Below are positions 2,681 to 25,379 of a stretch of DNA of 64,000 bases, one piece after another. The DNA comes from Ensifer adhaerens (GTDB lineage: Bacteria > Pseudomonadota > Alphaproteobacteria > Rhizobiales > Rhizobiaceae), in contig NZ_LAZS01000010.1 of the NCBI RefSeq assembly GCF_002007205.1, forward strand, positions 62,001 to 126,000, written 5' to 3'. The notes under the pieces were generated by a model that had not been told where the DNA came from, did not search any database, and saw only the letters and a program-made list of their open reading frames with translations. Made by a program: the position numbers and the translations under genes. Position 1 is the first letter of the stretch. Each line of letters begins with the position of its first letter.

Positions 2681-2681
2681 C

Positions 2682-3680
2682 ATGCTGCGATATATTCTCT
2701 GGCGTATCGCGGCGATGGCTCCGACCCTCCTCATCATTTCCGCTCTTGTCTTCACCATCATCGAGCTGCCGCCGGGCGACTACTTCGAGAGCTATGTCGC
2801 CGAGATCAAGGCGCAGGGCGAAGGCGTCGACATGGAGCAGATCGAGGCGCTCCGGAAGGAGTACGGCTTCGACCAGCCGCCGGTCCTGCGATATGTCTAT
2901 TGGCTCGGCGGCATGCTGCAGGGCGATTTCGGCTATTCCTTCGAGTACGAGCTTCCGGTGAGCGCCGTCGTCGGCGACCGCCTGTGGCTGACGATCCTCG
3001 TCTCCTTCGTCACCATCATCTTCACCTGGCTGATCGCCTTTCCGATCGGCATCTACTCGGCGACCCATCAATATAGCTGGGGAGACTACGGCCTCTCGCT
3101 GATGGGCCTGATCGGCATCGCCATCCCCAACTTCATGCTGGCGCTGATCCTGATGTATTTCGCCAATATCTGGTTCGGGATCTCGATCGGCCACCTGATG
3201 GACCAGAAGTATCTGGCCGAGCCGATGAGCTGGGAGAAAGCGAAGTCGATCCTCGAACACATCTGGATACCGGTCATCATCGTCGGGGCGGCGGGAACCG
3301 CCGGCATGATCCGGCGCCTGCGCGCCAACCTGCTCGACGAGTTGCAGAAGCAGTATGTGGTGACGGCGCGCGCCAAGGGGCTGTCGCCGATGCGCACACT
3401 GGTGAAGTATCCGCTGCGCATGGCGCTTAACTTCTTCATCTCGGATATCGGGTCGATCCTGCCGGCGATCATTTCCGGCGCTGAAATCACAGCGATCGTG
3501 CTGTCGCTCGAGACGACCGGCCCGATGTTGATCAAGGCGTTGCAGAGCCAGGACATGTATCTTGCCGGGTCCTTCCTGATGTTCCTGGCCTTCCTGACGG
3601 TGATCGGCGTGCTGATCTCCGACATAGCGCTCGCCATCCTCGATCCCCGAATTCGGCTGCAAGGCAGGAGCACCAAGTGA
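2682..3680 (+). CDS. Oligopeptide ABC transporter permease (DppB/OppB-like)
   Basis: Inner-membrane permease, 332 residues with about six membrane segments. The start MLRYILWRIAAMAPTLLII is the classic DppB-type beginning, one base after the preceding stop, which is why I prefer the ATG at 2682 over the upstream in-frame ATG at 2637 inside the binding-protein gene. The coupling (EAA-like) loop is visible as YVVTARAKGLSPMRTLVKYP near residue 230. It has a longer periplasmic stretch after TM1 than the E. coli proteins. Its stop overlaps the next start (GTGA). It should pair with the following permease to form the channel. Confidence 0.9.
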   Translation: MLRYILWRIAAMAPTLLIISALVFTIIELPPGDYFESYVAEIKAQGEGVDMEQIEALRKEYGFDQPPVLRYVYWLGGMLQGDFGYSFEYELPVSAVVGDRLWLTILVSFVTIIFTWLIAFPIGIYSATHQYSWGDYGLSLMGLIGIAIPNFMLALILMYFANIWFGISIGHLMDQKYLAEPMSWEKAKSILEHIWIPVIIVGAAGTAGMIRRLRANLLDELQKQYVVTARAKGLSPMRTLVKYPLRMALNFFISDIGSILPAIISGAEITAIVLSLETTGPMLIKALQSQDMYLAGSFLMFLAFLTVIGVLISDIALAILDPRIRLQGRSTK

Positions 3681-4852
3681 CGTCATTTCTTCCGGCGCCC
3701 GGCGAGCCTATGCCACATTACGTATCGACCGCCCCGTTCGACCCCTATTCCGTCGAGGCGATGACGGACGAGCAGGTGCGTGTCAATCAGGCGTCCCAGT
3801 TGCGGCTGATGTGGTGGAAGTTCCGCCGCCACCGGCTCGCGCTTGCTTCCGGCATTTTTCTTGCCGCGCTCTACCTGATGATCGTCGTCTGCGAGTTTCT
3901 GGCGCCTTACAACCTGCATACGCGCAACATGGACTATATCTACGCTCCGCCGCAGGCGGTGCACCTCTTCCATGAGGGCACGTTCGTCGGACCCTTCGTC
4001 TACGGCCGCACGATGACGCTGGATATGGAAACGCTGAAGCGCAACTACGCCGACGATACCAAGGACGTGCAGCGGCTTCGCTTCTTCTGCCGCGGCGACG
4101 GCTATCGTTTCTGGGGCCTGTTCGAGAGCAACGTGCATTTCGTCTGCCCCGCGGAAGGCGGTCAAGCCTTCTTTCTCGGAACGGATCGCCTCGGTCGCGA
4201 CGTGCTGTCGCGCATCATCTATGGCGCGCGGATTTCGCTGACGATCGGCCTGCTCGGCATCACCGTGAGCTTCGTGCTCGGTATCGTCATCGGCGGCCTC
4301 GCCGGCTATCACGGCGGCGTCTTCGACCTCGTCGTCCAGCGCGTGATCGAGGTGCTGCAGTCGATCCCGAGCATTCCGCTCTGGCTGTCGCTGGCGGCGA
4401 TCATGCCGGCGACCTGGAGTCCGATCTTCATCTATCTGGCGATCACGATCATCCTCGGCCTGCTCGATTGGACCGGGCTTGCCCGCGCCGTACGCTCGAA
4501 GCTGCTGGCGCTGCGCGAGGAGGACTATGTGCTTGCGGCCCAGCTGATGGGCGCAAGGAGCAGCCGCATCATCGGCCGGCATCTCGTCCCCGGTTTCATG
4601 TCGCACCTGATTGCCACCGCGACGATCTCGATTCCTGGCATGATCCTCGGCGAGACGGCGCTCAGCTTCCTCGGCCTCGGTCTCAGGCCACCCATCACCA
4701 GCTGGGGTATTCTGCTGACGGAGGCAAAAAGCGTCAGCGTCATTGCTTTCTATCCCTGGCTCCTATTTCCCACAATTCCGGTCATTCTTGTGATTTTGGC
4801 GTTCAACTTCTTGGGAGATGGCTTGCGTGACGCGGCCGATCCCTACAAATGA
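3677..4852 (+). CDS. Oligopeptide ABC transporter permease (DppC/YejE-like)
   Basis: Second permease of the importer, 391 residues. A GTG start overlaps the previous stop; an in-frame ATG at 3710 is an alternative. After the first membrane helix (residues about 55-75) there is an insert of roughly 100 residues with two Cys, predicted periplasmic. The usual FFLGTDRLGRDVLSRIIYGARIS signal (cited as LGTDRLGRDVLSRIIYGAR) and the coupling loop EEDYVLAAQLMGARSSRII follow. An extended region between TM1 and the LGTD motif is known in YejE-type members. The C-terminus FNFLGDGLRDAADPYK is standard for the family, so the gene looks intact. Confidence 0.9.
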   Translation: MTSFLPAPGEPMPHYVSTAPFDPYSVEAMTDEQVRVNQASQLRLMWWKFRRHRLALASGIFLAALYLMIVVCEFLAPYNLHTRNMDYIYAPPQAVHLFHEGTFVGPFVYGRTMTLDMETLKRNYADDTKDVQRLRFFCRGDGYRFWGLFESNVHFVCPAEGGQAFFLGTDRLGRDVLSRIIYGARISLTIGLLGITVSFVLGIVIGGLAGYHGGVFDLVVQRVIEVLQSIPSIPLWLSLAAIMPATWSPIFIYLAITIILGLLDWTGLARAVRSKLLALREEDYVLAAQLMGARSSRIIGRHLVPGFMSHLIATATISIPGMILGETALSFLGLGLRPPITSWGILLTEAKSVSVIAFYPWLLFPTIPVILVILAFNFLGDGLRDAADPYK

Positions 4853-4921
4853 AGCCCGGATTGACGCGGCCGTACTGCCAGCGTGAATGGTTCATCGTAC
4901 CCTGAGCGAAAGGTTTCTTGC

Positions 4922-6139
4922 ATGATGCGGCGTTTCGAAGATGCCCGGATCCTCATGTATAGCCATGACACGTTCGGGCTCGGACACCTGAGGCGTTGCC
5001 GTACGATCGCGCATTCGCTGGTGGAAGACTATCGCGGTTTGAACATCCTGATCATTTCCGGCGCGACGATCGCGGGTGCCTTCGACTACCGCGCGCGCGT
5101 GGATTTCGTGAAGATCCCGAGCGTCATCAAGCTGCACAATGGCGACTATACCTCGCTCGATCGCCACATCGAACTCGACGAGACTTTGAAGATGCGCCAG
5201 GCGATCATTCGCCATACGGCCGAGACGTTCAAGCCGGACATCTTCATCGTCGACAAGGAGCCGATGGGCTTGCGCGGCGAGGTCGAGGAGACGCTCACCT
5301 ACCTGAAAGCGCACGGCACGACGCTGGTCCTCGGCCTGCGCGAAGTCATGGATGCGCCGCATCTCCTGGAGGCGGAGTGGAAGCGGCGCGACACCATGCG
5401 CAAGATCGAGCAATATTACGATACGATCTGGGTCTACGGCCCGCCGGATTTCTACGACCCGCTCACCGAACTCGACGTGCCGCCAGCGGTAAGGGAACGG
5501 ATGAACTTCGTCGGCTTCCTGCAGCGCAGCGTCCCGCGCGAGGAATTGCCGGGACACAAGCCTGAGGGCGACTACATCCTCGTCACCACGGGTGGTGGCG
5601 GCGACGGCGCCGACCTCATCCACGACGTCATTCACGCCTATCAGGAAGACCCTGAGCTTACGCACAAGGCACTGATCGTGCTCGGCCCCTACATGCCGGT
5701 CAAGAAGCGGGAGAAGCTGATCCGCAAGGGCAGCAAGATCCCCTATATCAAGGTGATCGAGTTCGACAACCGCATGGAGGAACTCATCGCCGGCGCGAAA
5801 GGCGTCGTCGCGATGGGCGGTTACAACACCTATTGCGAAATTCTCTCCTTCGACAAGCCGGCGCTGATCGTACCGCGCATCCAGCCGCGCGAGGAGCAAT
5901 TGATCCGTGCCCGTCGTGCCGCCGAGCTGGGCTTGGTCGAGATGCTGCTGCCTAACGAGGCGGAGGATCCGCTGCGGCTGGCGGCAGCGCTGAAGGCGCT
6001 GCCCTATCGCGCTCCGCCGTCGAAAAGCAGCGCCAACGGCCTGCGGCTGGAAGGTCTCGTGCACATCTCCGAAATCGTCAGCAGATGGCTGCAACGGTCA
6101 TCCGCCGACCACCTGAACATCGTGAAGAAATCGAGCTGA
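4922..6139 (+). CDS. MurG-like (GT-B) glycosyltransferase
   Basis: Predicted cytoplasmic glycosyltransferase of the GT-B fold, 405 residues, resembling the predicted glycosyltransferases grouped with MurG (COG4671-like). The N-terminal motif DTFGLGHLRRCRTIAHSL matches the acceptor-side GxGHxxR loop. The C-terminal donor-side motif is VAMGGYNTYCEILSFDKPAL, followed by PREEQLIRARRAAELGL. I chose the ATG at 4922 because GAAAGG lies about 8 bases upstream; an in-frame GTG at 4883 lacks this. It is first in a three-glycosyltransferase block (gap of 4 bases to the next gene) and is paralogous to the third member at 7388. Donor and acceptor sugars are unknown. Confidence 0.85.
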   Translation: MMRRFEDARILMYSHDTFGLGHLRRCRTIAHSLVEDYRGLNILIISGATIAGAFDYRARVDFVKIPSVIKLHNGDYTSLDRHIELDETLKMRQAIIRHTAETFKPDIFIVDKEPMGLRGEVEETLTYLKAHGTTLVLGLREVMDAPHLLEAEWKRRDTMRKIEQYYDTIWVYGPPDFYDPLTELDVPPAVRERMNFVGFLQRSVPREELPGHKPEGDYILVTTGGGGDGADLIHDVIHAYQEDPELTHKALIVLGPYMPVKKREKLIRKGSKIPYIKVIEFDNRMEELIAGAKGVVAMGGYNTYCEILSFDKPALIVPRIQPREEQLIRARRAAELGLVEMLLPNEAEDPLRLAAALKALPYRAPPSKSSANGLRLEGLVHISEIVSRWLQRSSADHLNIVKKSS

Positions 6140-6143: not shown

Positions 6144-7388
6144 TTGCCGACAGACCGCAAGATTGCAGTCGTGCTGAAGGGCTACCCGCGTCTTTCGGAA
6201 ACATTCATCGCCCAGGAACTGCTTGGCCTCGAGCGGGCCGGGATCGAGTTGGTCCTGATCTCGCTCCGGCGTCCGACGGACGGCAAGCGCCACCCGGTCC
6301 ATGACGAAATCCGCGCCGACGTCCACTACCTGCCGGAATATCTGCACGAGGAGCCCCTAAGGGTCTTGCGCGGCCTCGTGCGCTGCCTGCCGAAGCCTGG
6401 CATCTGGCGCGCCCTTGGCCTGTTTTTCAAGGACCTGCCCCGCGATTTCAGCCGCAACCGCTTTCGCCGGCTCGGCCAAGCACTGGTGCTTGCCGCCGAA
6501 TGGCCAGGTGAGCCGGGCTGGCTGCATGCGCACTTCATCCATACCCCTGCCTCGGTGACGGCCTATGCCAGCGTGATCGCCGGCACGCCGTGGACATGTT
6601 CGGCGCATGCGAAGGACATCTGGACCTCACCCGACTGGGAGCTTTCCGAAAAGCTCGGCCTGGCGCGCTGGACCGTGACCTGCACGCGCATGGGGTACGA
6701 ACATCTCCGCAGCCTCGCGAGCGACAAGAAGAGGGTCCATCTGAGCTATCACGGCCTCGACCTTGATCGTTTCCCGCGTTTCGACGGCGCGCATTCCGAT
6801 CGAACGGGTTTCGATCCCGCCGATCCCGTCCGCATCGTCAGCGTCGGCCGTGCCGTTGGAAAAAAGGGCTATGACGTGCTGCTGAAGGCGCTCGCCCAGC
6901 TTCCGGCGGAGCTTCATTGGCGGTTCGAACATATCGGCGCGGGCGAACTGACGGGGCAGTTGAAGACCCTCGCAAAGGAGCTCGGCATCTCGGACCGCGT
7001 CGTCTGGAAGGGTGCGCTCGACCAGACCGATGTGCTTGCGCACTATCGGGCAAGCGACATTTTCGCGCTCGCCTGCCGGATCACCGCGGACGGCGACCGG
7101 GATGGGCTGCCGAACGTGCTCGTGGAAGCATCGAGCCAGCGACTGGCCTGTGTTTCGACCGCCATATCCGGCGTTCCGGAACTTCTCGAAGATGGCGAAA
7201 ACGGCCGTGTCGTTCCGTCGGAGGATTCGCAGGCGCTTGCGGTCGCGCTCGAGGAGCTGATCCGCAATCCGACGCTTCGCCACCGGTTCGGCGACGCTGC
7301 CGAGCGCAAGGTTCGCGGGCAGTTCGACCACCACACCAGCATCGAACAACTCGCCGGCCTGTTTGCCAGCGAATGGAGAGCTGCCTGA
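6144..7388 (+). CDS. Glycosyltransferase family 4
   Basis: Retaining GT-B glycosyltransferase of 414 residues, probably acting on a lipid-linked sugar at the inner membrane. It starts with TTG four bases after the previous stop; the N-terminal KIAVVLKGYPRLSETFIAQE is the conserved beginning of exopolysaccharide GT4 enzymes. The C-terminal half carries VGRAVGKKGYDVLLKAL and the donor-binding region GDRDGLPNVLVEASSQRLAC, where the second Glu of the E-x7-E motif is not obvious. Its stop overlaps the start of the next glycosyltransferase (TGATG), so the three genes are almost certainly translated together. Confidence 0.88.
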   Translation: MPTDRKIAVVLKGYPRLSETFIAQELLGLERAGIELVLISLRRPTDGKRHPVHDEIRADVHYLPEYLHEEPLRVLRGLVRCLPKPGIWRALGLFFKDLPRDFSRNRFRRLGQALVLAAEWPGEPGWLHAHFIHTPASVTAYASVIAGTPWTCSAHAKDIWTSPDWELSEKLGLARWTVTCTRMGYEHLRSLASDKKRVHLSYHGLDLDRFPRFDGAHSDRTGFDPADPVRIVSVGRAVGKKGYDVLLKALAQLPAELHWRFEHIGAGELTGQLKTLAKELGISDRVVWKGALDQTDVLAHYRASDIFALACRITADGDRDGLPNVLVEASSQRLACVSTAISGVPELLEDGENGRVVPSEDSQALAVALEELIRNPTLRHRFGDAAERKVRGQFDHHTSIEQLAGLFASEWRAA

Positions 7389-8524
7389 TGGGTGCACGTC
7401 GCGTCTTCTTCTACGTACAGCACCTGCTCGGCATCGGCCATCTGGCGCGGGCAAGCCGGATCGCGAGCGCATTGGCGGCCGGGGGCTACGAAGTGACCGT
7501 CGTTACGGGCGGCAGCCCGGTGCCGGGTTTTCCGGGAAGTGACGTGAAGCATGTCGCCCTGCCGCCGGTGCTCGCCGGCGACAAGGGGTTTACCGGTCTT
7601 GCCGATGGCGAGGGAAACCCGGTGAGCGAGGATTTCAAGCAAAAGCGCCGGGATCTCCTGATCGAGGCGTTCCTCGCCTGCAATCCTGATATCGTCATCT
7701 TCGAAGCCTTTCCCTTTGGCCGCCGCCAGATGCGTTTCGAGCTGATGCCGCTGCTGGAGGTGATCGAGAAGCAGGATCCGCGGCCTCTCGTTGCCGCATC
7801 GCTGCGCGATATCCTGCAGGAGCGGACGAAGCCTGGGCGCGCCGAGGAAACCCTCGACGTGGTCAGGGCGCATTTCGACCTCGTGCTCGTGCACGGCGAT
7901 CCTGCCTTCGCGCGGCTGGAGGAGACCTATCCCTATTCGGCGGAGATCAAGGACAAGATCGTCTATACCGGTCTTGTGGCCGGCAATGCGCCGGAGCCAC
8001 CGGCCGAAAGGTTCGACGTGCTCGTCTCGGCCGGCGGCGGGGCGGTTGGCAAGGAACTGATCGGCGCTGCGTTGCAGGCAGCCGGGCTGCTGGCGAGCGA
8101 CCTCAAATGGTGCCTGATAACCGGGCCGAACCTGCCGCAGAACGACTATGACGCCTTTGCGGCCGCAGCGCCCGCAAACGTGCACCTGTTCCGTTTCCGC
8201 AAGGATTTCGCGAGTCTGCTTTCGGGTACACGGCTCTCCGTTTCCCAGGCCGGCTACAACACCGTCTGCGACATCTTCCGTGCCGGCTGTGCGTCGCTGC
8301 TCATCCCCTTCGTCGCCGGCGGCGAGACCGAGCAGTCGACCCGCGCGGCACGGCTTGAAAAGCTCGGCCTTGCCGGGGTTCTGCCTGAGGCGGAGGTAAC
8401 ACCCGAGCGCTTGGCGCGGGATATCGAGGCGATGCTTGAGCGGCCGAGGCCGGACATTCCGCCGCTCGATCTCGACGGCGCGACAAAGACGGCCGAAATC
8501 CTCGATCGCCACGCGCGCGCTTGA
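7388..8524 (+). CDS. MurG-like (GT-B) glycosyltransferase, paralogue of the gene at 4922
   Basis: Predicted GT-B glycosyltransferase of 378 residues. The start is fixed by the TGATG overlap with the preceding gene and by FFYVQHLLGIGHLARASRIA, the GxGHxxR acceptor loop. The donor half has DVLVSAGGGAVGKELIGAAL and VSQAGYNTVCDIFRAGCASL, closely parallel to GGYNTYCEILSF in the gene at 4922. It ends the + strand block and converges on the methyltransferase gene at 8574. Substrate unknown; role in polysaccharide or glycolipid assembly is inferred from the neighbours. Confidence 0.85.
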   Translation: MGARRVFFYVQHLLGIGHLARASRIASALAAGGYEVTVVTGGSPVPGFPGSDVKHVALPPVLAGDKGFTGLADGEGNPVSEDFKQKRRDLLIEAFLACNPDIVIFEAFPFGRRQMRFELMPLLEVIEKQDPRPLVAASLRDILQERTKPGRAEETLDVVRAHFDLVLVHGDPAFARLEETYPYSAEIKDKIVYTGLVAGNAPEPPAERFDVLVSAGGGAVGKELIGAALQAAGLLASDLKWCLITGPNLPQNDYDAFAAAAPANVHLFRFRKDFASLLSGTRLSVSQAGYNTVCDIFRAGCASLLIPFVAGGETEQSTRAARLEKLGLAGVLPEAEVTPERLARDIEAMLERPRPDIPPLDLDGATKTAEILDRHARA

Positions 8525-8573: not shown

Positions 8574-9248
8574 TCAGATCGTGCCGATCAGCATGAAACG
8601 GGTGTATTTTTTGGTCGGCAGCGCACCGGCGAATTCGACCGTCGTCAGTGCCGCCTGCTTGGCGAATTCCTCGACCGAGGCGACGCAGTTGATATGGGTT
8701 GGCTCACTGAAATAGTCGTTGGACTGCAGCAGCACCCGCGTGCCGGCCGGAATGCGATCGAGCCACGCTTTGAGGTCTGCGATATGCTCGCAGCTCGTGT
8801 TGATCACCAGGTCCGCCGCCAGCGCTGCGTAGTCGATTGCATACATGTCGGCGGTCACGGCACGAAACTTTTCCGGGAAGGCGGCGTTCAGCGTCCGGGC
8901 CACGGCCTCGACATCCGGGTCGATGTCGAAGCTGTCGACGGCCGCCACGTCGAAGCGCCGGTCTTCCAGCAGCATGGCGCCGAGAATGCCGTACCAGCCG
9001 CCGAGGATCGCGATCCTGGCATAGGAGGGGCCGGTGACCTCAAAGAGCGTATCGCGCGCCCAGACCTTGCAGGCGACCTGCTTGTGGTTGAACGCATTGG
9101 CGATTTGGGCGTCGGGATGCTTGGCAATCACCCGGCCAATCCCTTCGATCAGCGGACTGCGCGTGTAGGCGGCGATGCCACGCGTCAGATCAAAGGCATG
9201 CTCGTACCAATCGCTGGTTTGGCAGGGGGGATGGCTGGTGTGTTTCAT
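8574..9248 (-). CDS. Class I SAM-dependent methyltransferase-like protein
   Basis: Protein of 224 residues with a Rossmann-type SAM-binding pattern: motif I appears as IAILGGWYGILGAMLLE near residue 75 and an acidic motif II as VAAVDSFDIDPDVEAVA. Motif IV may be ADLVINTSCEHI. The start at 9248 (MKHTSHPP) is preferred to an upstream in-frame start because the extra 20 residues are low-complexity and no ribosome site precedes them; the site at 9248 is itself weak. It is transcribed away from the ABC-like gene at 9553, across a 304-base gap. Target unknown; a sugar or small-metabolite substrate is possible. Confidence 0.7.
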   Translation of the reverse strand: MKHTSHPPCQTSDWYEHAFDLTRGIAAYTRSPLIEGIGRVIAKHPDAQIANAFNHKQVACKVWARDTLFEVTGPSYARIAILGGWYGILGAMLLEDRRFDVAAVDSFDIDPDVEAVARTLNAAFPEKFRAVTADMYAIDYAALAADLVINTSCEHIADLKAWLDRIPAGTRVLLQSNDYFSEPTHINCVASVEEFAKQAALTTVEFAGALPTKKYTRFMLIGTI

Positions 9249-9552
9249 GCCGTCGTTGTAAGCTGCGCATCGAGCGAGTGCAATAACGGCGTGTGCTTTC
9301 AAGAGCATCGGCCTCTGCCGGTTGACGATAGGGCCGCCTGTTGGAAACCGCGTCCATTGCAGATTTCCCTCGCACCTGCATAATCGATCAACCGGATTCG
9401 GCGCCGGGCGGAATATGCAGGCGTCCCTCCACGATCGCGGGCCATAGGGCAGCCATCCGGAGGCGTCGCCGAAGAGTGATGCGTGCTGGGGACATATGGC
9501 AACCCAGCCCGCCAGCAGCAGTCGTGTTCAATAGGGTCCTATCGCCAGTAAC
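9249..9552. other. Divergent intergenic region
   Basis: 304 bases between the start of the methyltransferase (minus) and the start of the ABC-like gene (plus). It must hold promoters for both. I see a short near-palindrome ATAGGGTCCTAT just upstream of the ABC gene (about 9530-9541) and no convincing small gene or strong ribosome site. Confidence 0.4.
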
Positions 9553-12243
9553 ATGGAACCACGCCTTTCCCGCTATATCTGGACCCACACGCGCAAGGAC
9601 CAGCTCTGGATCCTGGTTGTCGTCGCGCTGTCGATGATCCCCTACTTCCTGTCCTTCGATCTGCCGAAGCAGATCGTCAACGGACCGATCCAGGGCGATG
9701 GCTTCGACAGTCCGGAGGCCACGCAGGCCTTCCTGTCGATATCCTTCGACCTGCCGTACCTCGGCACGATCAACGTCTTTGACGGATTCCAGCTTGGCCG
9801 CGAAGGCATGCTGCTTGCCCTAAGCCTGGTCTTCCTGGCCCTGGTGGTGGTCAACGGCCTGTTCAAGTTCTATATCAACACGTTCAAGGGTCGGCTCGGC
9901 GAGCGGCTCCTGCGGCGTATCCGTTTCGAGCTCGTCGATCGGGTCTTGCGCTTCCCGCCCAGCCACTTCAAGCGGGTGAAGCCGGCCGAAATCGCAACGA
10001 TGATCAAGGACGAGGTCGAGCCGCTCGGCGGCTTCACCGGCGACGCCTTCGTCTCGCCCGCCCTGCTCGGCGGCCAAGCCCTAACTGCGCTCGTGTTCAT
10101 CCTCCTGCAGAGCTTCTGGCTCGGGCTGATCGCAACGCTGATCGTCGCGGTACAGGCGATCATCATCCCGCGCATGCGCAAGCGGCTCCTCGTGCTTGGA
10201 CGCGAGCGGCAGTTGACGGCGCGCGAGCTCTCCGGCCGCGTCAGTGAAATCGTCGACGGTATCGGCGCGATCCGCGGCCACGACACGTCGAACTACGAGC
10301 GCGCCGACATCGCGGCGCGGCTCGGGCGGATCTTCAAGATCCGCTACGACCTCTACCAGTGGAAATTCCTCGTCAAGTTCATCAACAACTTCCTGGCGCA
10401 GGTCACGCCGTTCCTGTTTTATGCGATCGGCGGCTATTTTGCCCTGCAGGGGCGCCTCGACATCGGCCAGCTCGTCGCCGTCATCGGCGCCTACAAGGAC
10501 CTGCCGGGCCCGCTGAAGGAACTGATCGACTGGGACCAGGCCCGCCAGGACGTCCAGGTGAAATATGCGCAGGTCGTCGAGCAGTTCAGCGTCGACACGC
10601 TGCTCGATCCAAAGGTCCAGGCGGTGGCGACGGCGGCTGCCGTGCCGCTCGCCGGCCCGCTTGCCGCCGTCAACGTGACGGTGATCGACGACGGCGGCTC
10701 GACCCTGCTTGACCACGTGTCGCTGCAGGTCCAGCCGGGCGAGAAATTGGCGCTGATGGGCGGCGGCGAAGTGCTCGCCGAGGCTTTCGGCCGGCTCGTC
10801 TGGCCGGCAAGCGGCAAGGTGGTCGTCGGTGGCCAGGATATTCTGGAAATGCCGGAGTCAGTGACCGGCCGGCGGATCGCCTACGCTTCGTCCGACGTCT
10901 ACGTCTTCCAGGGCAGTCTCGGCGACAACATCCTTTACGGGCTGAAACATGCGCCGCTGACGGACCTGGTCTATGAGGGCGAGCGCGCATCGCATCGCAA
11001 GTGGGAGGTGACGGAGGCGCGGCTTGCCGGCAACCCGCACCTCGACGTTGAAAGCGACTGGATCGACTATCAATCTGCCGGCGCGAACGGGCCGGACGAT
11101 CTGCTCGTCCAGATCCGGCCGGTTCTCGACGCCGTGCTTCTGACCAACGACGTCATGGCGCTGGCGGTGCGTTCGACCATCGATCCGCACCGGCATGCGG
11201 AGTTTGCCGCTGGTATCGTCGAGATGCGCAGCGCGCTCAGGCAGCGCCTGGAGACGGAAAAGCTCAGCGATCTCGTCGTGTTCTTCGAGCCCGGGACCTA
11301 CAATGTCGAGGCGACGATCGGTGAAAACATGCTCTTCGGCACCATCACCGACCAGGCGATGTGGGCGGACGCGCTCGAGCACCACCCGTTCTTCAAGACG
11401 ATCCTGCAACGGGTCGGCCTGCGCGACACCTTCTACGAGATGGGCATCGAGATCGCCGAGAACGTCGTCGAACTGTTCCGCGACCTGCCGCCGGATCACC
11501 CGTTCTTCCAGCAGCTGACCTTCATGACCGCCGAAGAAATCCCGGTCTATGAAGTCATCCTTCAGAAGGTGCGCACGAAGGGCAAGGGCGAGGTTTCCGA
11601 GGACGACCAGATCAAGGTGATCAGGCTGTGCTTCGATTACATCGAGCCGCGGCACCGCTTCGGTCTGTTGACGGATGAGGTGATGGCGAAGATCGTGGCC
11701 GCGCGGCGCGAGTTCGACGAAGGCCTGCCGGCCGATCTCGCCGGCATGATCGAGCATTACCGTCCGAACCGCTTCATCGCCTCCGGCAGCATCATCGACA
11801 ACGTGCTCTTCGGGCGTATCGGTCACAAACATGCCGACGGATCGGAGAAAATCCGCGCCATCGTTCGGGATCTCTTCGAGGCGGGCGGCCTCTACAACGA
11901 AGTGCTCGCCTTCGGCTTCGACTTCAATGTCGGCGCCGGCGGCAAGCGGTTGACGGCCGCGCAACGACAGAAGCTCGACCTTGCGCGCGCGCTGATCCGC
12001 AATTGTGACTACTACATCTTCAATCAGCCGCTGCTGGCGCTCGACCAGCGCGTCCAGGAGCAGGTCGTTCGCAATGTCTTCGCGATGCTCGACCAGAGCG
12101 GGCGCGACCCGGCGATCGTCTGGGTTCTCGCCAATCCGGCGCTGACCGACCTCTTCGATCGCGTCGCCCAGTTCGAAAACGGTCGCCTGGTGAACGACGC
12201 CAATGTGGATGAACGACCTGACTATAAGGAAATGGCATCTTGA
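9553..12243 (+). CDS. ABC-exporter-like protein with degenerate nucleotide-binding domain
   Basis: 896 residues. Residues about 15-330 form an ABC exporter transmembrane domain (hydrophobic segments near 16-34, 85-104, 172-205 and 282-300, with the coupling-helix region ERLLRRIRFELVDRVLRFPP). The rest looks like a nucleotide-binding domain that has lost every catalytic motif. Walker A is LMGGGEVLAEA (401-411) with no Lys. The signature reads GGKRLTAAQRQ (796-806). Walker B is YYIFNQPLLALD with no acidic pair, and the switch His is absent (VWVLANPA). A Q-loop-like element (G, S/T or A, I/L, then DN or EN, then I/M/V-L-Y/F-G) occurs three times: at 454-463, 587-596 and 745-754. About 280 extra residues lie between the first and third copies. 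A cyclic-nucleotide-binding protein follows. I infer a non-transporting or regulated membrane protein. Confidence 0.8.
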   Translation: MEPRLSRYIWTHTRKDQLWILVVVALSMIPYFLSFDLPKQIVNGPIQGDGFDSPEATQAFLSISFDLPYLGTINVFDGFQLGREGMLLALSLVFLALVVVNGLFKFYINTFKGRLGERLLRRIRFELVDRVLRFPPSHFKRVKPAEIATMIKDEVEPLGGFTGDAFVSPALLGGQALTALVFILLQSFWLGLIATLIVAVQAIIIPRMRKRLLVLGRERQLTARELSGRVSEIVDGIGAIRGHDTSNYERADIAARLGRIFKIRYDLYQWKFLVKFINNFLAQVTPFLFYAIGGYFALQGRLDIGQLVAVIGAYKDLPGPLKELIDWDQARQDVQVKYAQVVEQFSVDTLLDPKVQAVATAAAVPLAGPLAAVNVTVIDDGGSTLLDHVSLQVQPGEKLALMGGGEVLAEAFGRLVWPASGKVVVGGQDILEMPESVTGRRIAYASSDVYVFQGSLGDNILYGLKHAPLTDLVYEGERASHRKWEVTEARLAGNPHLDVESDWIDYQSAGANGPDDLLVQIRPVLDAVLLTNDVMALAVRSTIDPHRHAEFAAGIVEMRSALRQRLETEKLSDLVVFFEPGTYNVEATIGENMLFGTITDQAMWADALEHHPFFKTILQRVGLRDTFYEMGIEIAENVVELFRDLPPDHPFFQQLTFMTAEEIPVYEVILQKVRTKGKGEVSEDDQIKVIRLCFDYIEPRHRFGLLTDEVMAKIVAARREFDEGLPADLAGMIEHYRPNRFIASGSIIDNVLFGRIGHKHADGSEKIRAIVRDLFEAGGLYNEVLAFGFDFNVGAGGKRLTAAQRQKLDLARALIRNCDYYIFNQPLLALDQRVQEQVVRNVFAMLDQSGRDPAIVWVLANPALTDLFDRVAQFENGRLVNDANVDERPDYKEMAS

Positions 12244-12334
12244 TGTAATATTAATGTCAGGGCACGAGCATATGGTCCCGCCGCGATGCGGGAGGCAAGT
12301 TGCTCCCGACGGGAACTCGGAGACACGGATTGTG

Positions 12335-12799
12335 ATGTTGCTCAAAGATGAAGTGGAAATGCTGCGCCGAATAACCCTGTTCTCAGGATTGCCGCCGGCA
12401 AAGCTGAAACTTCTGGCCTTCACGTCCGACCGGGTCATGTACAGCGCCGGCGAAGCGCTGTTCTATCAGGGTGACATTGGCGATGCGGCCTATGTCATTC
12501 TTTCCGGCAAGGCGGAGGTGCTCATCAATACGGCGGGTGGGCCCTTCAAGATCGCCGAAGTCGAACAGAATTCGATCGTTGGTGAAATCGCCATCCTCTG
12601 CAATACGCCACGCACCGCAACGGTGCGCACCAGCACCCCGCTCGAAGCCCTGCGCATCCGCAAGGACGATTTCCTCAAGCTTCTGGCCGACTTCCCCGAA
12701 ATGGCGGTAGAAATCATGCGCGTTCTCGCCGACCGCCTTGCGCAAACGACGGCGGAGTTGAGCGAGGCACGCGGCCCGCGCGAGCCTGTGGACGCCTGA
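12335..12799 (+). CDS. Stand-alone cyclic-nucleotide-binding (Crp-type) domain protein
   Basis: 154-residue soluble protein consisting of one cNMP-binding fold with no helix-turn-helix. The phosphate-binding cassette is well conserved: GDAAYVILSGKAEVLI, then VGEIAILCNTPRTATVRT with the Gly-Glu pair and the Arg that contacts the cyclic phosphate. The start at 12335 is supported by GGAG about 12 bases upstream and by MLLKDEVEMLRRITLFSGL; a GTG one codon upstream is possible. Two short GC-rich hairpins lie just before it (around 12276-12312). It directly follows the degenerate ABC gene and is likely co-transcribed, suggesting ligand sensing for that protein. Absence of a DNA-binding domain argues against a direct transcription factor. 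Confidence 0.85.
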   Translation: MLLKDEVEMLRRITLFSGLPPAKLKLLAFTSDRVMYSAGEALFYQGDIGDAAYVILSGKAEVLINTAGGPFKIAEVEQNSIVGEIAILCNTPRTATVRTSTPLEALRIRKDDFLKLLADFPEMAVEIMRVLADRLAQTTAELSEARGPREPVDA

Positions 12800-14255: not shown

Positions 14256-16193
14256 ATGTGCGGTTACGGTGGCTATTTCGGCTCGGTCCCGGAGGCGGAA
14301 ATCCTTCTCAAGAGGATGGTCGCTGCGATCGCGCATCGCGGCCCGGACGAAAACGGTATTCTCGCCGCGCCGGAAGCAGGGCTCGCCCACGCGCGGCTGT
14401 CGATCGTTGGTCTTGGCGACGGGCAGCAGCCGATGTCCGACGAAACAGGCGACCTTTCGATCGCCTTCAACGGCGAGATCTTCAACTATGTCGAACTGCG
14501 CGAGGATCTGCGCGCCAAGGGGCGCCGATTCCGCACGACGAGCGACACCGAGGTCATCCTGCACCTCTACGCTGTGATGGGCGAGGCGTGCCTGTCCGTC
14601 CTCAACGGCGATTTTTCCTTCGCGATCTGGGATCGGCGCCGCCAGCGCATGGTGTTGGCGCGCGACCGCATGGGTGTGCGCCCGCTGTTTTACACGACCC
14701 ATGGCGGCACATTCTATTTCGCCTCCGAAATCAAGGCGCTGCTTCAGGTTCCCGGAATTTCCGCCGAGCTCGATCCGGTTGCGCTCGACCAGATCTTTAC
14801 CCTCTGGGCGCCAATCGCGCCGCGGACGGGCTTTCGCGGCATTGAGGAGCTCGAGCCGGCTCACCTGATGATCGTCGAAAAGGGCAAGACGTCGATCCGC
14901 CCCTATTGGCAGCTCGACTACCCTGGCCACGACGCGCCGCCGCTGTTTGCAGATGAGCGTAGCGCCGCCGAGGAATTGCGCGCCCTCCTCACCGATGCGA
15001 CCCGGATCCGGATGCGGGCCGATGTGCCCGTCGGCTCCTATCTCTCGGGCGGGCTCGACAGCTCCATCGTCTCGGCTCTGGCAGCCGGAATGGCGCCTCA
15101 GGGTCTGCGCACGTTTTCCGTGACGTTCGATAGCGCCGAGCACGACGAGAGCGCCTTCCAGATGGAAATGGCGACAGCGCTCGGAACCCATCACAGCGCG
15201 GTCGCCTGTCGCGCCGGCGACATCGCGAAGGTTTTTCCGCAGGTCGTCCGTTTCGCAGAACGGCCGATCATCCGCACGGCACCGGCGCCGCTTTACCAGC
15301 TCTCCGGCCTCGTTCGCGAACAGGGGTTGAAAGTGGTGCTGACGGGCGAGGGCGCCGACGAGGTCTTCGCCGGGTACGATATCTTCAAGGAGGCGCGGGT
15401 GCGCCGCTTCTGCGGCCGCCAGCCCGGCTCGCGAATCCGCCCGCACCTGTTCCGCAAGCTCTACCCCTATCTGCCGGGTCTGCAGCAGCAATCGGCGGAA
15501 TATCTCGCCGCCTTCTTCGGCGCAGGCGACGTGCCGCTCGATGATCCGCTTTTCTCGCACCGTCCGCGGTTCAAGAGCACGGCCGCGACCAAGATCTTCT
15601 TTTCTCCCGATCTTCGCGCCACGCTGAAGGACTACGACGCGGCCGAAGATCTGGCGAGCAGGCTTCCTGCCGCCTTCGGCCGCTGGCATCCGCTGCACCA
15701 GGCGCAATATCTTGAGAGCCGTTTCCTTCTGCCCGGATACATTCTCTCCAGCCAGGGCGACCGCATGGCCATGGCGCACGGGATCGAGGGGCGCTTTCCG
15801 TTCCTGGACCACCGTCTCGTCGAGTTCGCGACGCGCCTGCCGCCGGAAATGAAACTGAAGGGGCTGGTGGAAAAGCACATCCTGCGCGAGGCGACGAAGG
15901 ATCTGCTGCCGCCGACCATCGGTCAACGCACCAAGCAGCCCTACCGCGCGCCCGACAGCCATTCCTTCACCGGCCCCGGCGAACTGGATTACGTTCGCGA
16001 GGCCATGAGCGAGACGCGCATCGGCGACAGCGGTCTGTTCAATGCCAAGGCCGTGGTCAAGCTCTATGAGAAGTGCCAGTCGCAACCGGCGACCGGCTTC
16101 AGGGACAATGCCGCCTTCGTCGGTATCCTGTCGACGCAGCTTTGGCTGCAGACCTTTACCGGCACCAGCATCCGCGCCGCTCGAGCGGCCTGA
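14256..16193 (+). CDS. asnB: Asparagine-synthase-type glutamine amidotransferase (polysaccharide-associated)
   Basis: 645 residues with an N-terminal glutaminase domain (Cys2 after Met1 in MCGYGGYFG, then HRGPDENG and FNGEIFNYVEL) and a C-terminal ATP-pyrophosphatase synthase domain (SYLSGGLDSSIVSAL at about 260-274, GEGADEVFAGYDIF further on). All expected catalytic features are present. Biochemically it should transfer ammonia from glutamine to an AMP-activated carboxylate. In this setting the acceptor may be a uronic acid or acyl group rather than aspartate, as known for WbpS-type enzymes. Length and context match the amidotransferase of exosortase-associated polysaccharide clusters. It is followed at 22 bases by the carrier-protein gene. 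Confidence 0.88.
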   Translation: MCGYGGYFGSVPEAEILLKRMVAAIAHRGPDENGILAAPEAGLAHARLSIVGLGDGQQPMSDETGDLSIAFNGEIFNYVELREDLRAKGRRFRTTSDTEVILHLYAVMGEACLSVLNGDFSFAIWDRRRQRMVLARDRMGVRPLFYTTHGGTFYFASEIKALLQVPGISAELDPVALDQIFTLWAPIAPRTGFRGIEELEPAHLMIVEKGKTSIRPYWQLDYPGHDAPPLFADERSAAEELRALLTDATRIRMRADVPVGSYLSGGLDSSIVSALAAGMAPQGLRTFSVTFDSAEHDESAFQMEMATALGTHHSAVACRAGDIAKVFPQVVRFAERPIIRTAPAPLYQLSGLVREQGLKVVLTGEGADEVFAGYDIFKEARVRRFCGRQPGSRIRPHLFRKLYPYLPGLQQQSAEYLAAFFGAGDVPLDDPLFSHRPRFKSTAATKIFFSPDLRATLKDYDAAEDLASRLPAAFGRWHPLHQAQYLESRFLLPGYILSSQGDRMAMAHGIEGRFPFLDHRLVEFATRLPPEMKLKGLVEKHILREATKDLLPPTIGQRTKQPYRAPDSHSFTGPGELDYVREAMSETRIGDSGLFNAKAVVKLYEKCQSQPATGFRDNAAFVGILSTQLWLQTFTGTSIRAARAA

Positions 16194-16215
16194 ACCCATT
16201 GGGAAAGGAAACGAA

Positions 16216-16482
16216 ATGACGGAAACCATCAAGGACAAGGTCAGGGCCTTTGTCGTCGAGAACTTCCTGTTCGGCGATACCTCTTACGATCTCGCCGACG
16301 GCGCCTCGCTGATCGAGAACGATATCATCGACTCGACCGGCGTTCTCGAACTCGTCGCCTTCATCGAAGACCAGTTCGGCATCGCCATGGCTGACGCCGA
16401 CATCGTGCCCTCGAACCTCGATTCGCTTGCGCGCATATCGGCCTTCATCGAGGCAAAGGCCGGAGTGCCGGCCACGGCCTAA
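16216..16482 (+). CDS. Acyl carrier protein
   Basis: 88-residue acidic four-helix carrier protein. The phosphopantetheine attachment site is Ser40 in IIDSTGVLELVAFIEDQFG; the usual Leu after Ser is replaced by Thr, which is common in non-fatty-acid carriers. GGAAACGAA precedes the ATG. It lies between the amidotransferase and the AMP-forming ligase, 20 bases before the latter. It most likely holds an acyl or aminoacyl group activated by that ligase for transfer to a sugar, rather than serving bulk fatty-acid synthesis. Confidence 0.88.
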   Translation: MTETIKDKVRAFVVENFLFGDTSYDLADGASLIENDIIDSTGVLELVAFIEDQFGIAMADADIVPSNLDSLARISAFIEAKAGVPATA

Positions 16483-16502
16483 CCAAGACCCGAGGGCGTT
16501 CC

Positions 16503-18053
16503 ATGCGGTTCGAGCAATTTCTCATCGGCAATGCGGCAAGGCATGCGGCCAAGACGGCGCTGGTCACCGATCGCAAGCGCCTCAGCTACGGCGAGTTCGA
16601 CGATCTGTCGAGCCGACTGGCGGCCGCGCTGGCAAGGGCAGGCGTCAAGCGCAACGACCGCGTCCTCGTGTTCATGGACAATTGCTGGGAGGCGGCCGTC
16701 TCGATCTTTGCGATCCTGAAGGCGGGCGCGACCTTCAGTCCGATCAACGCCTCGACCAAGGCGGACAAGCTCGCCTACATCATCGACGACTGCGAGGCGG
16801 CTGCGATCCTGACGCAGGCCAAGCTGATGCCGGTGGTGGCAGACGCCCGGGCGCAGAGCAGCGGCAAGGCCGATATCTTCGTCGCATCGACCGCAGCGCC
16901 CAATGGCCAGTCGCCCTCAGGCGCAGTCTCCTTCGAGGACTGTCTGTCGGCGCAGGCAGCGCCGGTGCCGCATGGCGGCATCGACGTCGATCTGGCGATG
17001 CTCATCTACACGTCGGGTTCGACCGGGCGCCCGAAGGGCGTGATGATGACCCATCGCAATATCGATGCGGCGTCGGAATCGATCACCACCTACCTGCGCA
17101 ACGAGCACGACGACATCATCCTCAACGTGCTGCCGCTCGCCTTCGACTACGGCCTCTACCAGTTACTGATGGCGATCCGGCTCGGTGCGACGCTGGTGCT
17201 CGAAAAGTCCTTCGCCTTCCCGCATGCGATCTTCGAGCGCATCCGCGAAGAGCGCGTCACCGGCTTCCCGCTGGTGCCGACGATGGCGGCGATGATCCTG
17301 CAGATGCGTGACCTGGAGCCGGGGTTCCTGCCGAGCTTGCGCTACCTCTCCAATACGGCAGCCGCCCTGCCGCCGCCGCACATCGCGCGCCTGCGCGAAC
17401 TCTTCCCGGGCGCGCGGCTCTATTCGATGTACGGGCTGACGGAGTGCAAGCGCTGTACCTACCTGCCGCCGGAAGAGCTTGATCGTCGGCCGGGCTCCGT
17501 CGGCATCGCCATCCCCAATACGGAAGCCTTCGTCGTCGACGACGAGGGCAGCCGCGTGCCGCCGGGCGTTGCCGGCGAACTCGTCATTCGCGGACCACAT
17601 GTCATGCAGGGCTACTGGCGCAATGATGCAGCGACCGAGCGCATGCTGCGGCCCGGGCCGAACCCGTGGGAAAAGGTGCTCTATACCGGCGACCTCTTCC
17701 AGACCGACGAGGAAGGTTTCCTCTATTTCGTCGGCCGCAAGGACGACATCATCAAGACCCGCGGCGAGAAGGTCGCGCCGAAGGAAGTCGAGACCGTGCT
17801 GCATGCCCATCCCGGCATTGCCGAGGCGGTCGTCATCGGCATGCCGGATCCGGTTCTCGGCCATGCCATTGCCGCGCTTGTGGTGCGCACGGATCCTGAC
17901 CTCACCGACAAGGACATCATCCGCCACTGCACCCGCCACCTCGAAGACTTCATGGTGCCGAAGATCATCGAATTCCGCACCGAACTGCCAAAGACGGATA
18001 CGGGCAAGGTCAGCCGCCGCCTTGCCGCCGAGACGATGGAGCCTGCACAATGA
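16503..18053 (+). CDS. AMP-forming acyl-CoA/acyl-ACP ligase (polysaccharide-associated)
   Basis: 516-residue member of the acyl-activating (ANL) superfamily. The P-loop-like motif is LIYTSGSTGRPKGVMMTHRN (about 167-186), the A5 motif SMYGLTECKRCTYLPPEEL, the A7 aspartate motif YTGDLFQTDEEGFLYFVGR and the A8 hinge KDDIIKTRGEKVAPKEVE. The catalytic Lys is in KTDTGKVSRR near the C-terminus. It should adenylate a carboxylic acid and load it on the adjacent carrier protein. Length and neighbours match the AMP-forming ligase of exosortase-type polysaccharide clusters. Its stop overlaps the next ATG (ATGA). Confidence 0.9.
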   Translation: MRFEQFLIGNAARHAAKTALVTDRKRLSYGEFDDLSSRLAAALARAGVKRNDRVLVFMDNCWEAAVSIFAILKAGATFSPINASTKADKLAYIIDDCEAAAILTQAKLMPVVADARAQSSGKADIFVASTAAPNGQSPSGAVSFEDCLSAQAAPVPHGGIDVDLAMLIYTSGSTGRPKGVMMTHRNIDAASESITTYLRNEHDDIILNVLPLAFDYGLYQLLMAIRLGATLVLEKSFAFPHAIFERIREERVTGFPLVPTMAAMILQMRDLEPGFLPSLRYLSNTAAALPPPHIARLRELFPGARLYSMYGLTECKRCTYLPPEELDRRPGSVGIAIPNTEAFVVDDEGSRVPPGVAGELVIRGPHVMQGYWRNDAATERMLRPGPNPWEKVLYTGDLFQTDEEGFLYFVGRKDDIIKTRGEKVAPKEVETVLHAHPGIAEAVVIGMPDPVLGHAIAALVVRTDPDLTDKDIIRHCTRHLEDFMVPKIIEFRTELPKTDTGKVSRRLAAETMEPAQ

Positions 18054-19060
18054 ACATCAGAACGACTGAGGGCGCCGGCCCGTTTTCGGCCGAAACCCTG
18101 ACGATCGACCATGCGGTCGAGACCGATCGCATCGTTGCAGCGCTGCGCGAGCAGTTGCGCTCCATGAAGAAGCGCGGCCTGGTGCTCGGGCTTTCGGGCG
18201 GCATCGACTCCAGCGTTTCTGTCGCGCTTGCGGTGCGCGCCGTGGGCGCCAAGAACGTCTTCTGCCTGTTCATGCCGGAAAACGATTCCGATCCGGAAAG
18301 CCTTCGCTTCGGCCGGCTGGTCGCCGAAACCTTCGGCGTCGAGGCGATCGTCGAGGATATCGGCCCGGCGCTCAAGGCCATGGGTTGCTACGAGCGCCGC
18401 GACGCCTTCATCCGCGAGCTGGTTCCGGAATATGGCGACGGATGGGCGTCAAAAATCGTCATCGCCAACGCCCTGGAAGGTGAGGGGTACAACATATCGT
18501 CGCTGGTGGTGCAGAGCCCCGAGGGCGTGCAGTCGAAACACCGTATGCCGCCGTCGGTCTATCTCGGCATCGTCGCCGCCACCAACATGAAGCAGCGCAC
18601 CCGCAAGCAGGTCGAATATTACCATGCCGACCGGCTGAACTTCGCCGTGCTCGGCACGCCGAACCGGCTGGAATACGACCAGGGCTTCTTCGTCAAGAAC
18701 GGCGACGGCGCTGCCGACGTCAAACCGATCGCCCATCTTTACAAGTCGCAGGTCTATGCGCTTGCCGCCCATCTTGGGGTTCCCGAGGAAGTGCGCCGCC
18801 GCCCGCCGACGACCGACACCTATTCGCTGGAGCAGACGCAGGAGGAGTTCTATTTCTCCCTGCCTTACGACCGCATGGACCTCTGCCTCTATGGCCTCAA
18901 CCATGGCATCGAGATCGACGTCGTTGCCAAGGCGGCGGGCCTGAGCGTCGTCCAGGTCGAAAGGGTCTGGGCCGATATTGCAGCCAAGCGCAAGGCGACG
19001 CGTTACCTGCATCTCGGACCGCAACTGGTGCGGCCCGTGGAGGAGATTGCCGGCTATTGA
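18050..19060 (+). CDS. nadE: NAD synthase-like ATP-pyrophosphatase (synthetase domain only)
   Basis: 336 residues. The PP-loop LVLGLSGGIDSSVSVALAV (about 44-62) and the downstream DGAADVKPIAHLYKSQVYAL plus RRPPTTDTYSLEQTQEEF follow the NAD-synthetase pattern. The N-terminal nitrilase-type glutaminase domain found in the ~550-residue glutamine-dependent enzymes is missing. It would need free ammonia or a partner such as the amidotransferase at 14256. Its ATGA overlap with the acyl ligase ties it to this operon, so it may amidate an adenylated intermediate of the polysaccharide pathway rather than supply housekeeping NAD. That reassignment is an inference. Confidence 0.8.
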   Translation: MNIRTTEGAGPFSAETLTIDHAVETDRIVAALREQLRSMKKRGLVLGLSGGIDSSVSVALAVRAVGAKNVFCLFMPENDSDPESLRFGRLVAETFGVEAIVEDIGPALKAMGCYERRDAFIRELVPEYGDGWASKIVIANALEGEGYNISSLVVQSPEGVQSKHRMPPSVYLGIVAATNMKQRTRKQVEYYHADRLNFAVLGTPNRLEYDQGFFVKNGDGAADVKPIAHLYKSQVYALAAHLGVPEEVRRRPPTTDTYSLEQTQEEFYFSLPYDRMDLCLYGLNHGIEIDVVAKAAGLSVVQVERVWADIAAKRKATRYLHLGPQLVRPVEEIAGY

Positions 19061-19085
19061 GGCTTGGCCGGACCGCCGGCCATCG

Positions 19086-20198
19086 TCAATCGAAGTTGCC
19101 GCCGATCAGCCGGCTCCAATATTCGCCGGAAATGCCGTTGAAGAAGCCCTGTCCGTCGCGGCAGGCTTCGACAATGGCCTGGTCGCGCGAATGCACGACG
19201 GTCGAGGCGACATGCACGAAAGCGATGCGACGGCCGAGCATGGCTTCCATCAGCGCCGGTTGCGTGCGTCCGCGCAAGCCCGCAAGACCGCGTCGCGACG
19301 CCTCGTCGACCAGGCAGTCGATGACCGGCCCCGCCTGCCCTGGCCGCGCCAGGATCTGCAGTACCCGACCGATTTCACCGGCTTTGGCGTAGTAGGCGAA
19401 GGCGCCGACGACGGCGCCCGTGCGGGCTGTCACCAGCGCGTAGACGAGTTCACCCTGCTCGGGCTTCTTTTCGGCATCGGCAAGGATGTGATTGAGCTGG
19501 CCGTCGCTCCATTCGGGGCGAAGCGGAAACGGCGCGGTGAACTGGTCGACGACGGCGGCAAAACCGCCGCGGTCGGTTTCGATCGCGGTGAAGCCGGCCG
19601 GTGCCGCACCCGCTTCGGGCAGGGCGGACCAGCGCTGTTCGCCTTGGCCCATGCGCTTGCGATAGAACCTGTCGAGCGCGCGCGCGAAGGGGGCGGCGAG
19701 GCGGGCGGGCTTGATGCGGTTCGAAGCGACGCTGAGGCTGAAGGTCGCCGGACGGATGACGCGCACCCAGTCGAGGCTGTACTGCGGCAGAACCACGCCG
19801 CGAAGCCGCGTCCACATCTGCACGGAAACTTCGCTTGCCGTTTCGCTGAACGACAGATCCTGCGGACCGGCGAGGAATGCCTTCATCAGGCGCGCTCCGG
19901 CCAGGGGATCGCTCTCGCGGTCTTCCGCCATCAGCGAGCCGCAGATCGCCGCGCGCAAGTGCCGGCCGTTCAGTATCATCGGCAGCGCATTGACACCGAC
20001 GAAGCCGGTAATGCGACCCGCGTCATTCACATGCACCAGCGGTCTGATTTCCGGGTCACAGCCTGGTCCGTCGAGATAGAGTTGCCGCATGTAGTCGGCG
20101 AGGGCGGGCGAAGCGGCCCGCTCGTCGCGGAACACCCGCTGGAACATTCCGGCGACGGCTGGAACGTCGGCGTTCTCTAGCGAACGAATTTCGCTCAT
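19086..20198 (-). CDS. GNAT-like acyltransferase, paralogue of the gene at 22452
   Basis: 370-residue soluble protein that opens like an N-acetyltransferase (IRSLENADVPAVAGMFQRVF) and appears to hold two GNAT-like halves. The second contains ELVYALVTARTGAVVGAFAY and GRVLQILARPGQAGPVIDCL. The C-terminus GEYWSRLIGGNFD matches SESWSRLLTDF of the protein encoded at 22452, and the N-termini also align. Its start overlaps the stop of the methyltransferase gene at 20195 (ATGA), so the two minus-strand genes form an operon converging on the NAD-synthase-like gene. A possible role is acyl transfer to a sugar using acyl-ACP from the neighbouring genes; unproven. Confidence 0.65.
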   Translation of the reverse strand: MSEIRSLENADVPAVAGMFQRVFRDERAASPALADYMRQLYLDGPGCDPEIRPLVHVNDAGRITGFVGVNALPMILNGRHLRAAICGSLMAEDRESDPLAGARLMKAFLAGPQDLSFSETASEVSVQMWTRLRGVVLPQYSLDWVRVIRPATFSLSVASNRIKPARLAAPFARALDRFYRKRMGQGEQRWSALPEAGAAPAGFTAIETDRGGFAAVVDQFTAPFPLRPEWSDGQLNHILADAEKKPEQGELVYALVTARTGAVVGAFAYYAKAGEIGRVLQILARPGQAGPVIDCLVDEASRRGLAGLRGRTQPALMEAMLGRRIAFVHVASTVVHSRDQAIVEACRDGQGFFNGISGEYWSRLIGGNFD

Positions 20199-23600: not shown

Positions 23601-23607
23601 CGCGATG

Positions 23608-23635: not shown

Positions 23636-23639
23636 GAAT

Positions 23640-25368: not shown

Positions 25369-25379
25369 AGAGGGGCGGC

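Follow-up and report, generated by a model that had tools for sequence, protein, structure and literature searches.

The stretch of DNA analysed here, referred to below as the window, comprises 64,000 nucleotides of Ensifer adhaerens (assembly GCF_002007205.1, contig NZ_LAZS01000010.1, positions 62,001 to 126,000 of the forward strand). At 9553–12243 it carries a gene for a protein related to ATP-binding cassette (ABC) exporters, in which the nucleotide-binding domain (NBD) lacks the residues of ATP catalysis and is expanded from within. A gene for a protein of the cyclic nucleoside monophosphate (cNMP)-binding type follows it, and three glycosyltransferase genes lie upstream. The 896 codons of the exporter-like gene are open without a break, and the parts of its product are listed below.

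9553–12243, plus strand: exporter-fold protein of 896 aa with a degenerate, internally expanded NBD (from the open reading frame, Pfam and alignment)
9553–10602, plus strand: membrane domain, residues 1–350, with the PF00664 match at 87–311; the slowest-evolving part of the protein
10633–10962, plus strand: N-terminal half of the NBD, residues 361–470, from the degenerate Walker A (G405, E406) through the first Q-loop-like element
10912–10941, plus strand: Q-loop-like element 1, GSLGDNILYG, residues 454–463
10963–11757, plus strand: inserted region, residues 471–735
11197–11451, plus strand: repeat unit, residues 549–633, holding Q-loop-like element 2, ATIGENMLFG (residues 587–596, 11311–11340)
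11674–11922, plus strand: repeat unit, residues 708–790, holding Q-loop-like element 3, GSIIDNVLFG (residues 745–754, 11785–11814)
11758–12222, plus strand: C-terminal half of the NBD, residues 736–890, where LTAAQ, NQ and A860 replace LSGGQ, the Walker B DE and the switch His

The membrane domain matches PF00664 (ABC_membrane) with 68 bits against a cut-off of 28. The ABC_tran family of Pfam is matched in part only, by positions 1–80 of the 137 in its profile, at residues 386–477, and NCBIfam models match the second half of the NBD near residues 735–888. In a profile alignment to the canonical exporter of the same genome, which served as the reference for catalytic positions, the N-terminal half and element 1 are matched, most of the insert is skipped, and the alignment restarts before the degenerate signature. 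Seven marks were scored: the Walker A Lys, the Ser/Thr following it, the Q-loop Gln, SGGQ, the Walker B Asp, the catalytic Glu and the switch (H-loop) His. The window protein has none of them: G405 and E406 occupy the two Walker A positions, S447 that of the Q-loop Gln, LTAAQ (800–804) that of LSGGQ, N824-Q825 those of the Walker B Asp and the Glu, and A860 that of the His. A reading made from the letters alone (the sequence-only reading) had seen an exporter membrane domain without the Walker A Lys, the Walker B pair, LSGGQ and the switch His, and both Pfam and the same-genome alignment confirm this description. Repeats at the DNA level within the gene are short and uninformative. Antisense to it, on the minus strand, a frame of 526 codons is open at 10858–12438, with no sign of a gene.

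The best NCBIfam match of the protein is MsbA (E 2.4e-42), at 145 bits against a cut-off of 602. With type I (MsbA-like) exporters it shares PF00664 and the order of the NBD landmarks; it differs from them in that the Walker A Lys, the Walker B D-E pair, LSGGQ and the switch His are absent, and in having some 280 additional residues, among them two further copies of the Q-loop/helical segment. Thus, judged by sequence, the family lacks the catalytic marks of ABC exporters, yet appears to share their fold family and descent.

The loss extends to the relatives. The family alignment contains 172 relatives of more than 800 aa, all with a BLAST E of 1e-80 or better; some of these rows are one gene represented twice, and 93 are left at less than 85% identity. 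The Lys is kept in 48 rows, the Ser/Thr in 6, the Gln in 16, SGGQ in none, the Walker B Asp in 16, the Glu in 44 and the His in 23. The Walker A Gly 404 is retained in 162. No row has all seven marks. Lys, Asp, Glu and His occur together in three (L101, L118, L146), and the richest relative, L146, has five of the seven (K, T, D, E, H). In a separate set of 93 rows with at least 60% identity to the window protein every mark is absent, except for a single Glu in one row. These counts bear out the decay of the ATPase proposed in the sequence-only reading. As the mark counts are graded among the rows, and as the Lys label needs 15 changes on a quick membrane-domain tree (93 rows; 31 of the 90 inner branches unsupported), the decay appears to have been gradual and repeated, with the group of the window protein as its end state. 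The catalytic loss is common to all near relatives; it is not recent. As a separate observation, the relatives L131, L101, L118 and L146, which retain four or five of the seven marks, should be useful for dating the loss of ATP use.

The three Q-loop-like elements, which the sequence-only reading had placed at residues 454–463, 587–596 and 745–754 and attributed to duplication of part of the NBD, lie exactly there. Each of them separately aligns to the ABC Q-loop/helical segment, with probabilities of 97.9, 92.3 and 97.1 for elements 1 to 3, whereas four control regions reach at most 2.7 against the same profile, which was built on 13 ABC proteins of this genome, both exporters and others; the profile matches thus exceed chance. 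Residues 549–633 and 708–790 align to each other over 83 columns (hhalign, probability 98.8), and among 119 random segment pairs the top four, with scores of 36.7 to 69.9, overlap this very repeat, the next best scoring 30.9. One Asn in each element (459, 592 and 750) is invariant in all 172 rows. Hence the repeat and profile alignments of sequence support a Q-loop/helical segment that occurs three times, family-wide, through duplication of part of the NBD. Since the triplication is common to all aligned rows and the catalytic loss is graded and repeated, the complete loss would postdate the expansion. The inserted region (471–735) gave no match up to E 10 in a profile search of the PDB. A known domain in the insert was also considered and rejected: seven Pfam and four NCBIfam families were hit, each in one of 32 members, with a best E of 0.0057.

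Every one of the 16 genus-group genomes has the gene, with an identity of at least 88% and no internal stops. The ratio of nonsynonymous to synonymous substitution rates (dN/dS) of the whole gene is 0.046–0.056 against five relatives at 93–98% identity and 0.079 against one at 87%; it rises to 0.14–0.18 at 76–79% identity, where dS is 0.8–1.0. Five further pairs among relatives give 0.037–0.057 in four cases and 0.26 in one (L029/L028). The control, an active exporter of the same genomes, has dN/dS of 0.037–0.126 per domain in 15 comparisons, so the exporter-like gene is under purifying selection, in the range of an active exporter. The earlier statement that this is not a simple pseudogene holds as well, the genus genomes being stop-free and dN/dS about as low as that of the active exporter. 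Recent inactivation is ruled out by the same two results together with the loss common to near relatives. The sequence-only reading had named homologues with intact Walker motifs as a sign of such inactivation. They exist in part, in that 48 of the 172 rows have the Lys; the recent inactivation itself does not stand, as near relatives share the loss.

Within the protein the substitutions are unevenly spread. Over six same-genus relatives dN is 0.004–0.030 in the membrane domain and 0.011–0.139 in the segments of the NBD and insert; dN of the NBD exceeds that of the membrane domain by a factor of about 2 to 9 (from rounded values), the corresponding ratio in the control being 0.70–2.68. Further, three relatives of 412–489 aa have the membrane domain only, with no ABC_tran match in Pfam (L180:11773-13077, L229:5773-7011, L230:5797-7266); they adjoin genes for a copper oxidase, a copper-binding protein and azurin on plasmids of the Roseobacter group. 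That the membrane domain is so strongly conserved, and that it occurs alone in these copper islands, suggests that it is active in its own right.

A search at E 1e-60 found the family in 128 of the 385 alphaproteobacterial genomes sampled, representing 85 of 277 genera, and in 70 of the 151 genomes of the taxonomic family. In a draw across the phylum 27 of 398 genomes matched (E 1e-50), all 27 from the same class or closer. The window gene finds its best plasmid matches, at 97%, in E. adhaerens plasmids about 1.7 Mb long.

Downstream of the exporter-like gene lie the following features.

12335–12799, plus strand: stand-alone cyclic-nucleotide-binding protein, 154 aa (PF00027); the reading frame is also open from 12203
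12581–12622, plus strand: its phosphate-binding-cassette signature, GEIAILCNTPRTAT

The PF00027 match (E 1.3e-20, 73.6 bits against a cut-off of 27.5), together with the Glu and Arg of the cassette, bears out the earlier identification of a cNMP-binding protein at this place. The start is likely at 12335 rather than 12203; the annotated counterpart in S. meliloti is 465 nt long. A cNMP-binding gene is found at most 2.6 kb away, midpoint to midpoint, in 155 of the 172 rows; in 154 of these it is downstream and shares the strand of the exporter-like gene. As an aside, the cNMP match and the exporter-like gene of row L133 overlap by midpoint, and the match is not downstream. In 12 rows the domain is fused to the exporter-like protein, so that it is close or fused in 167; it was not found in five, of which three have only about 1.4 kb of downstream sequence. 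C-terminal fusions also occur in three annotated plasmid relatives, from Sulfitobacter, Azospirillum and Ruegeria. On the membrane-domain tree, with its many unsupported branches, the fusion needs one change. In the cNMP pocket ribose and phosphate are bound through the Glu and the Arg, and a Thr after the Arg favours cGMP in eukaryotic kinases. Over 166 aligned cNMP domains the pocket signature has the Gly in 166, the Glu in 159, the Arg in 166 and the Thr following it in 154. The sequence-only reading had proposed a sensor–scaffold pair. The pairing with a sensor stands (167 of 172); the scaffold is one option among others, and a gated transporter or channel fits equally. Taken as a whole, its interpretation is supported at the level of sequence comparison.

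The neighbourhood on the upstream side is as follows.

4883–6139, plus strand: GT_A, glycosyltransferase (PF04101); co-occurs with the exporter-like protein
6144–7388, plus strand: GT_B, glycosyltransferase (PF00534)
7388–8524, plus strand: GT_C, glycosyltransferase (PF04101)
8574–9308, minus strand: methyltransferase-like gene between GT_C and the exporter-like gene, seen in 33 of the 77 near loci and in none of the 40 distant ones
3–4852, plus strand: Opp/Yej-type importer genes, frequent neighbours (ATPase cut by the window edge, solute-binding protein 779–2680, permeases 2637–3680 and 3677–4852)

Neighbourhoods were counted where the flanks were at least 6 kb, that is, in 77 of 82 near and 40 of 50 distant loci, and synteny was derived from homology searches, greedy longest-ORF (open reading frame) calling being noisy in this DNA. 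GT_A, GT_B and GT_C all lie within 11 kb in 76 of the 77 near loci, and at least two of the set in 20 of the 40 distant ones. Distant lineages often add a further glycosyltransferase, GT_D (18 of 40), a histidine phosphatase (17 of 40) and a deacetylase-like protein (16 of 40). GT_A is present in 126 of the 385 genomes, 122 of them with the exporter-like protein; four have GT_A alone, six the exporter-like protein alone, and 253 neither (phi 0.94). For an unrelated, patchily distributed control, the sheath family of the type VI secretion system, phi is −0.11 over 337 of these genomes. A Sulfitobacter plasmid has in a row a nucleotide-sugar dehydrogenase, four glycosyltransferases, a histidine phosphatase, a deacetylase and a cNMP-fused exporter-like protein. 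Among the ten features of that stretch there is no other exporter.

We favour, at somewhat better than even probability, an exporter-fold protein that does not hydrolyse ATP, takes its state from its cNMP-binding partner and acts in a surface-glycan module. This reading builds on the observed decay of the catalytic sequence, the triplication, the purifying selection, the cNMP pairing and the glycosyltransferase co-occurrence. The product of 9553–12243 would be a pseudo-ABC exporter, presumably a homodimer, and we infer that its NBDs no longer hydrolyse ATP. The protein encoded at 12335–12799 would dock on it, taking the place of ATP as the conformational input. In active exporters the coupling helices of the membrane domain make contact with the Q-loop/helical segment; its triplicated form here is the likely platform for docking and force transmission. 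With the conserved glycosyltransferases the two would form a surface-glycan module in which passage, flipping or assembly of the product would depend on the cNMP level; its substrate, any direction of movement and the choice of cyclic nucleotide would be matters of inference as well. A wider proposal, which we offer tentatively as possible but doubtful, is that a class-wide family gave up ATP and now serves, under cNMP gating, as transporters, flippases or channels for a glycan that the partner glycosyltransferases make, the triplicated module receiving the cNMP signal. If true, an exporter would have been converted to a ligand-gated device. Irrespective of this proposal, a family whose NBD has lost its catalytic marks, which selection maintains in about a third of the alphaproteobacteria sampled and which is tied to a cyclic-nucleotide-type sensor, would show the re-purposing of the exporter fold and its placement under a second messenger. 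It raises a question that can be addressed in a laboratory strain, namely, the role of an exporter membrane domain when no ATP is hydrolysed. By their linkage the glycosyltransferases suggest a surface-glycan pathway for which we found no description. Literature searches gave no paper on the exporter-like family; the old S. meliloti locus tag was not obtained, so misses are possible.

Several observations weigh against the favoured reading. The Lys in 48 rows and the K, T, D, E and H of L146 are such, and some relatives, given their retained marks, may bind ATP or hydrolyse it slowly. Aligned directly, element 1 is weakly similar to elements 2 and 3 (16 and 22 columns, probabilities 85 and 88), and the scores of 29.3 and 30.9 are not above those of the best other random pairs. 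The co-occurrence of GT_A was counted without regard to shared ancestry. In 20 of the 40 distant loci no glycosyltransferase of the set is adjacent, so the cNMP link alone is close to obligate. In two rows with longer flanks, L141 and L145, the cNMP gene was not found. An adenylate/guanylate cyclase gene (L181 10458–11807) ends about 2.2 kb before the window start, which is suggestive only. Loci of S. meliloti, R. etli and the Mesorhizobium type have full-length relatives of it close to the unit, with gene orders that differ, and a cyclase of one subfamily lies within 11 kb in only nine of the 77 near and four of the 40 distant loci. The genome has 32 cyclase-domain matches, and by our estimate some cyclase would be expected within 11 kb by chance in about a tenth of loci; the evidence for a cyclase link is weak. 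Finally, the cNMP fold can take other ligands: the domain of HetC binds ppGpp (PMC10986499).

Among the alternatives, a pure scaffold or receptor, in which the membrane domain moves nothing and holds the cNMP sensor and the glycosyltransferases at the membrane, is unlikely on balance, and it overlaps with the "assembly" option of the favoured reading. It draws on the same sequence evidence, nothing in which shows transport. Against it, no part of the protein evolves more slowly than the membrane domain, which also persists alone in the copper-island relatives.

We consider it rather unlikely, too, that the protein is the degenerate half of a heterodimeric exporter of the TM287/288 type, with a partner encoded elsewhere that has a working ATPase. 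At least 150 ABC_tran matches in the genome leave room for such a partner. In heterodimeric exporters the half with the consensus site is often adjacent; here a canonical-exporter-like ORF with a membrane part is near only one of 50 distant loci (L125) and one of 82 near loci (L076), counts that cover the loci and not the rest of the genome. Moreover, the fused cNMP domains suggest self-contained units. Degenerate sites are common in type I exporters and are paired with a canonical one; in TM287/288, TmrAB and CFTR a degenerate nucleotide site is kept alongside a canonical one (PMC7756269). The likeness is that selection keeps non-consensus catalytic residues. The difference is that here the single NBD is itself degenerate and internally triplicated and has no recurring canonical partner nearby; such expansion with near-total loss of the marks exceeds one degenerate site.

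A still weak or unorthodox ATPase, or an ATP-sensing exporter, is quite improbable. The Lys, Glu and His counts, the five marks of L146 and the nearly universal Gly 404 would fit it, whereas the nearest 93 rows lack every mark except for a single Glu, 166 of the 172 rows have no Ser/Thr after the Lys position, and SGGQ is absent in all. A decaying relic or pseudogene, to which the lost motifs and the one in-frame stop in a distant relative (G225) might point, is hardly credible given 16 stop-free genus genomes, low dN/dS and positions invariant throughout the class.

Three other known systems are similar in part. HetC is an exporter with a C39 peptidase and an N-terminal cNMP domain, in which an ATPase residue is essential (PMC10986499). 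The two cases share an exporter fold tied to a cNMP-type domain with a proposed control by ligand, and differ in that the family studied here has lost the ATPase marks and has its cNMP domain either at the C-terminus or on a separate protein. The window protein is not of the HetC type: it lacks the catalytic marks, and its Pfam matches include no peptidase family. The cNMP-binding protein resembles NCBIfam TIGR03896 (bacteriocin-type transport-associated protein; E 1e-12), which is also cNMP-type and, by its name, transport-associated. Membership in it is ruled out, at 48 bits against a cut-off of 161. The msbA2 operon of S. meliloti (SMb21188-SMb21191, at about 938 kb of pSymB) contains an exporter and two glycosyltransferases, and polysaccharide export was proposed for it (PMC3687685). 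It has in common with our case an exporter gene alongside glycosyltransferases, on pSymB. It was rejected as the same locus, since gene content and position differ. The S. meliloti counterpart lies at 841.7–844.4 kb of pSymB in strain 2011, a coordinate record different from that of the msbA2 paper.

Two further arrangements were seen. A plasmid of Sulfitobacter indolifex (L232:605-11105) has a compact one-strand module with the cNMP-fused form as its last gene, followed by a transposase. In the window itself, 14256–28716 is a second polysaccharide-type cluster, the first genes of which do not adjoin the unit in the examined S. meliloti stretch and do so in L012. It comprises asparagine-synthase-like, AMP-binding, NAD-synthase-like, Wzz, Wzy/O-antigen-ligase-like, polysaccharide deacetylase and glycosyltransferase genes.

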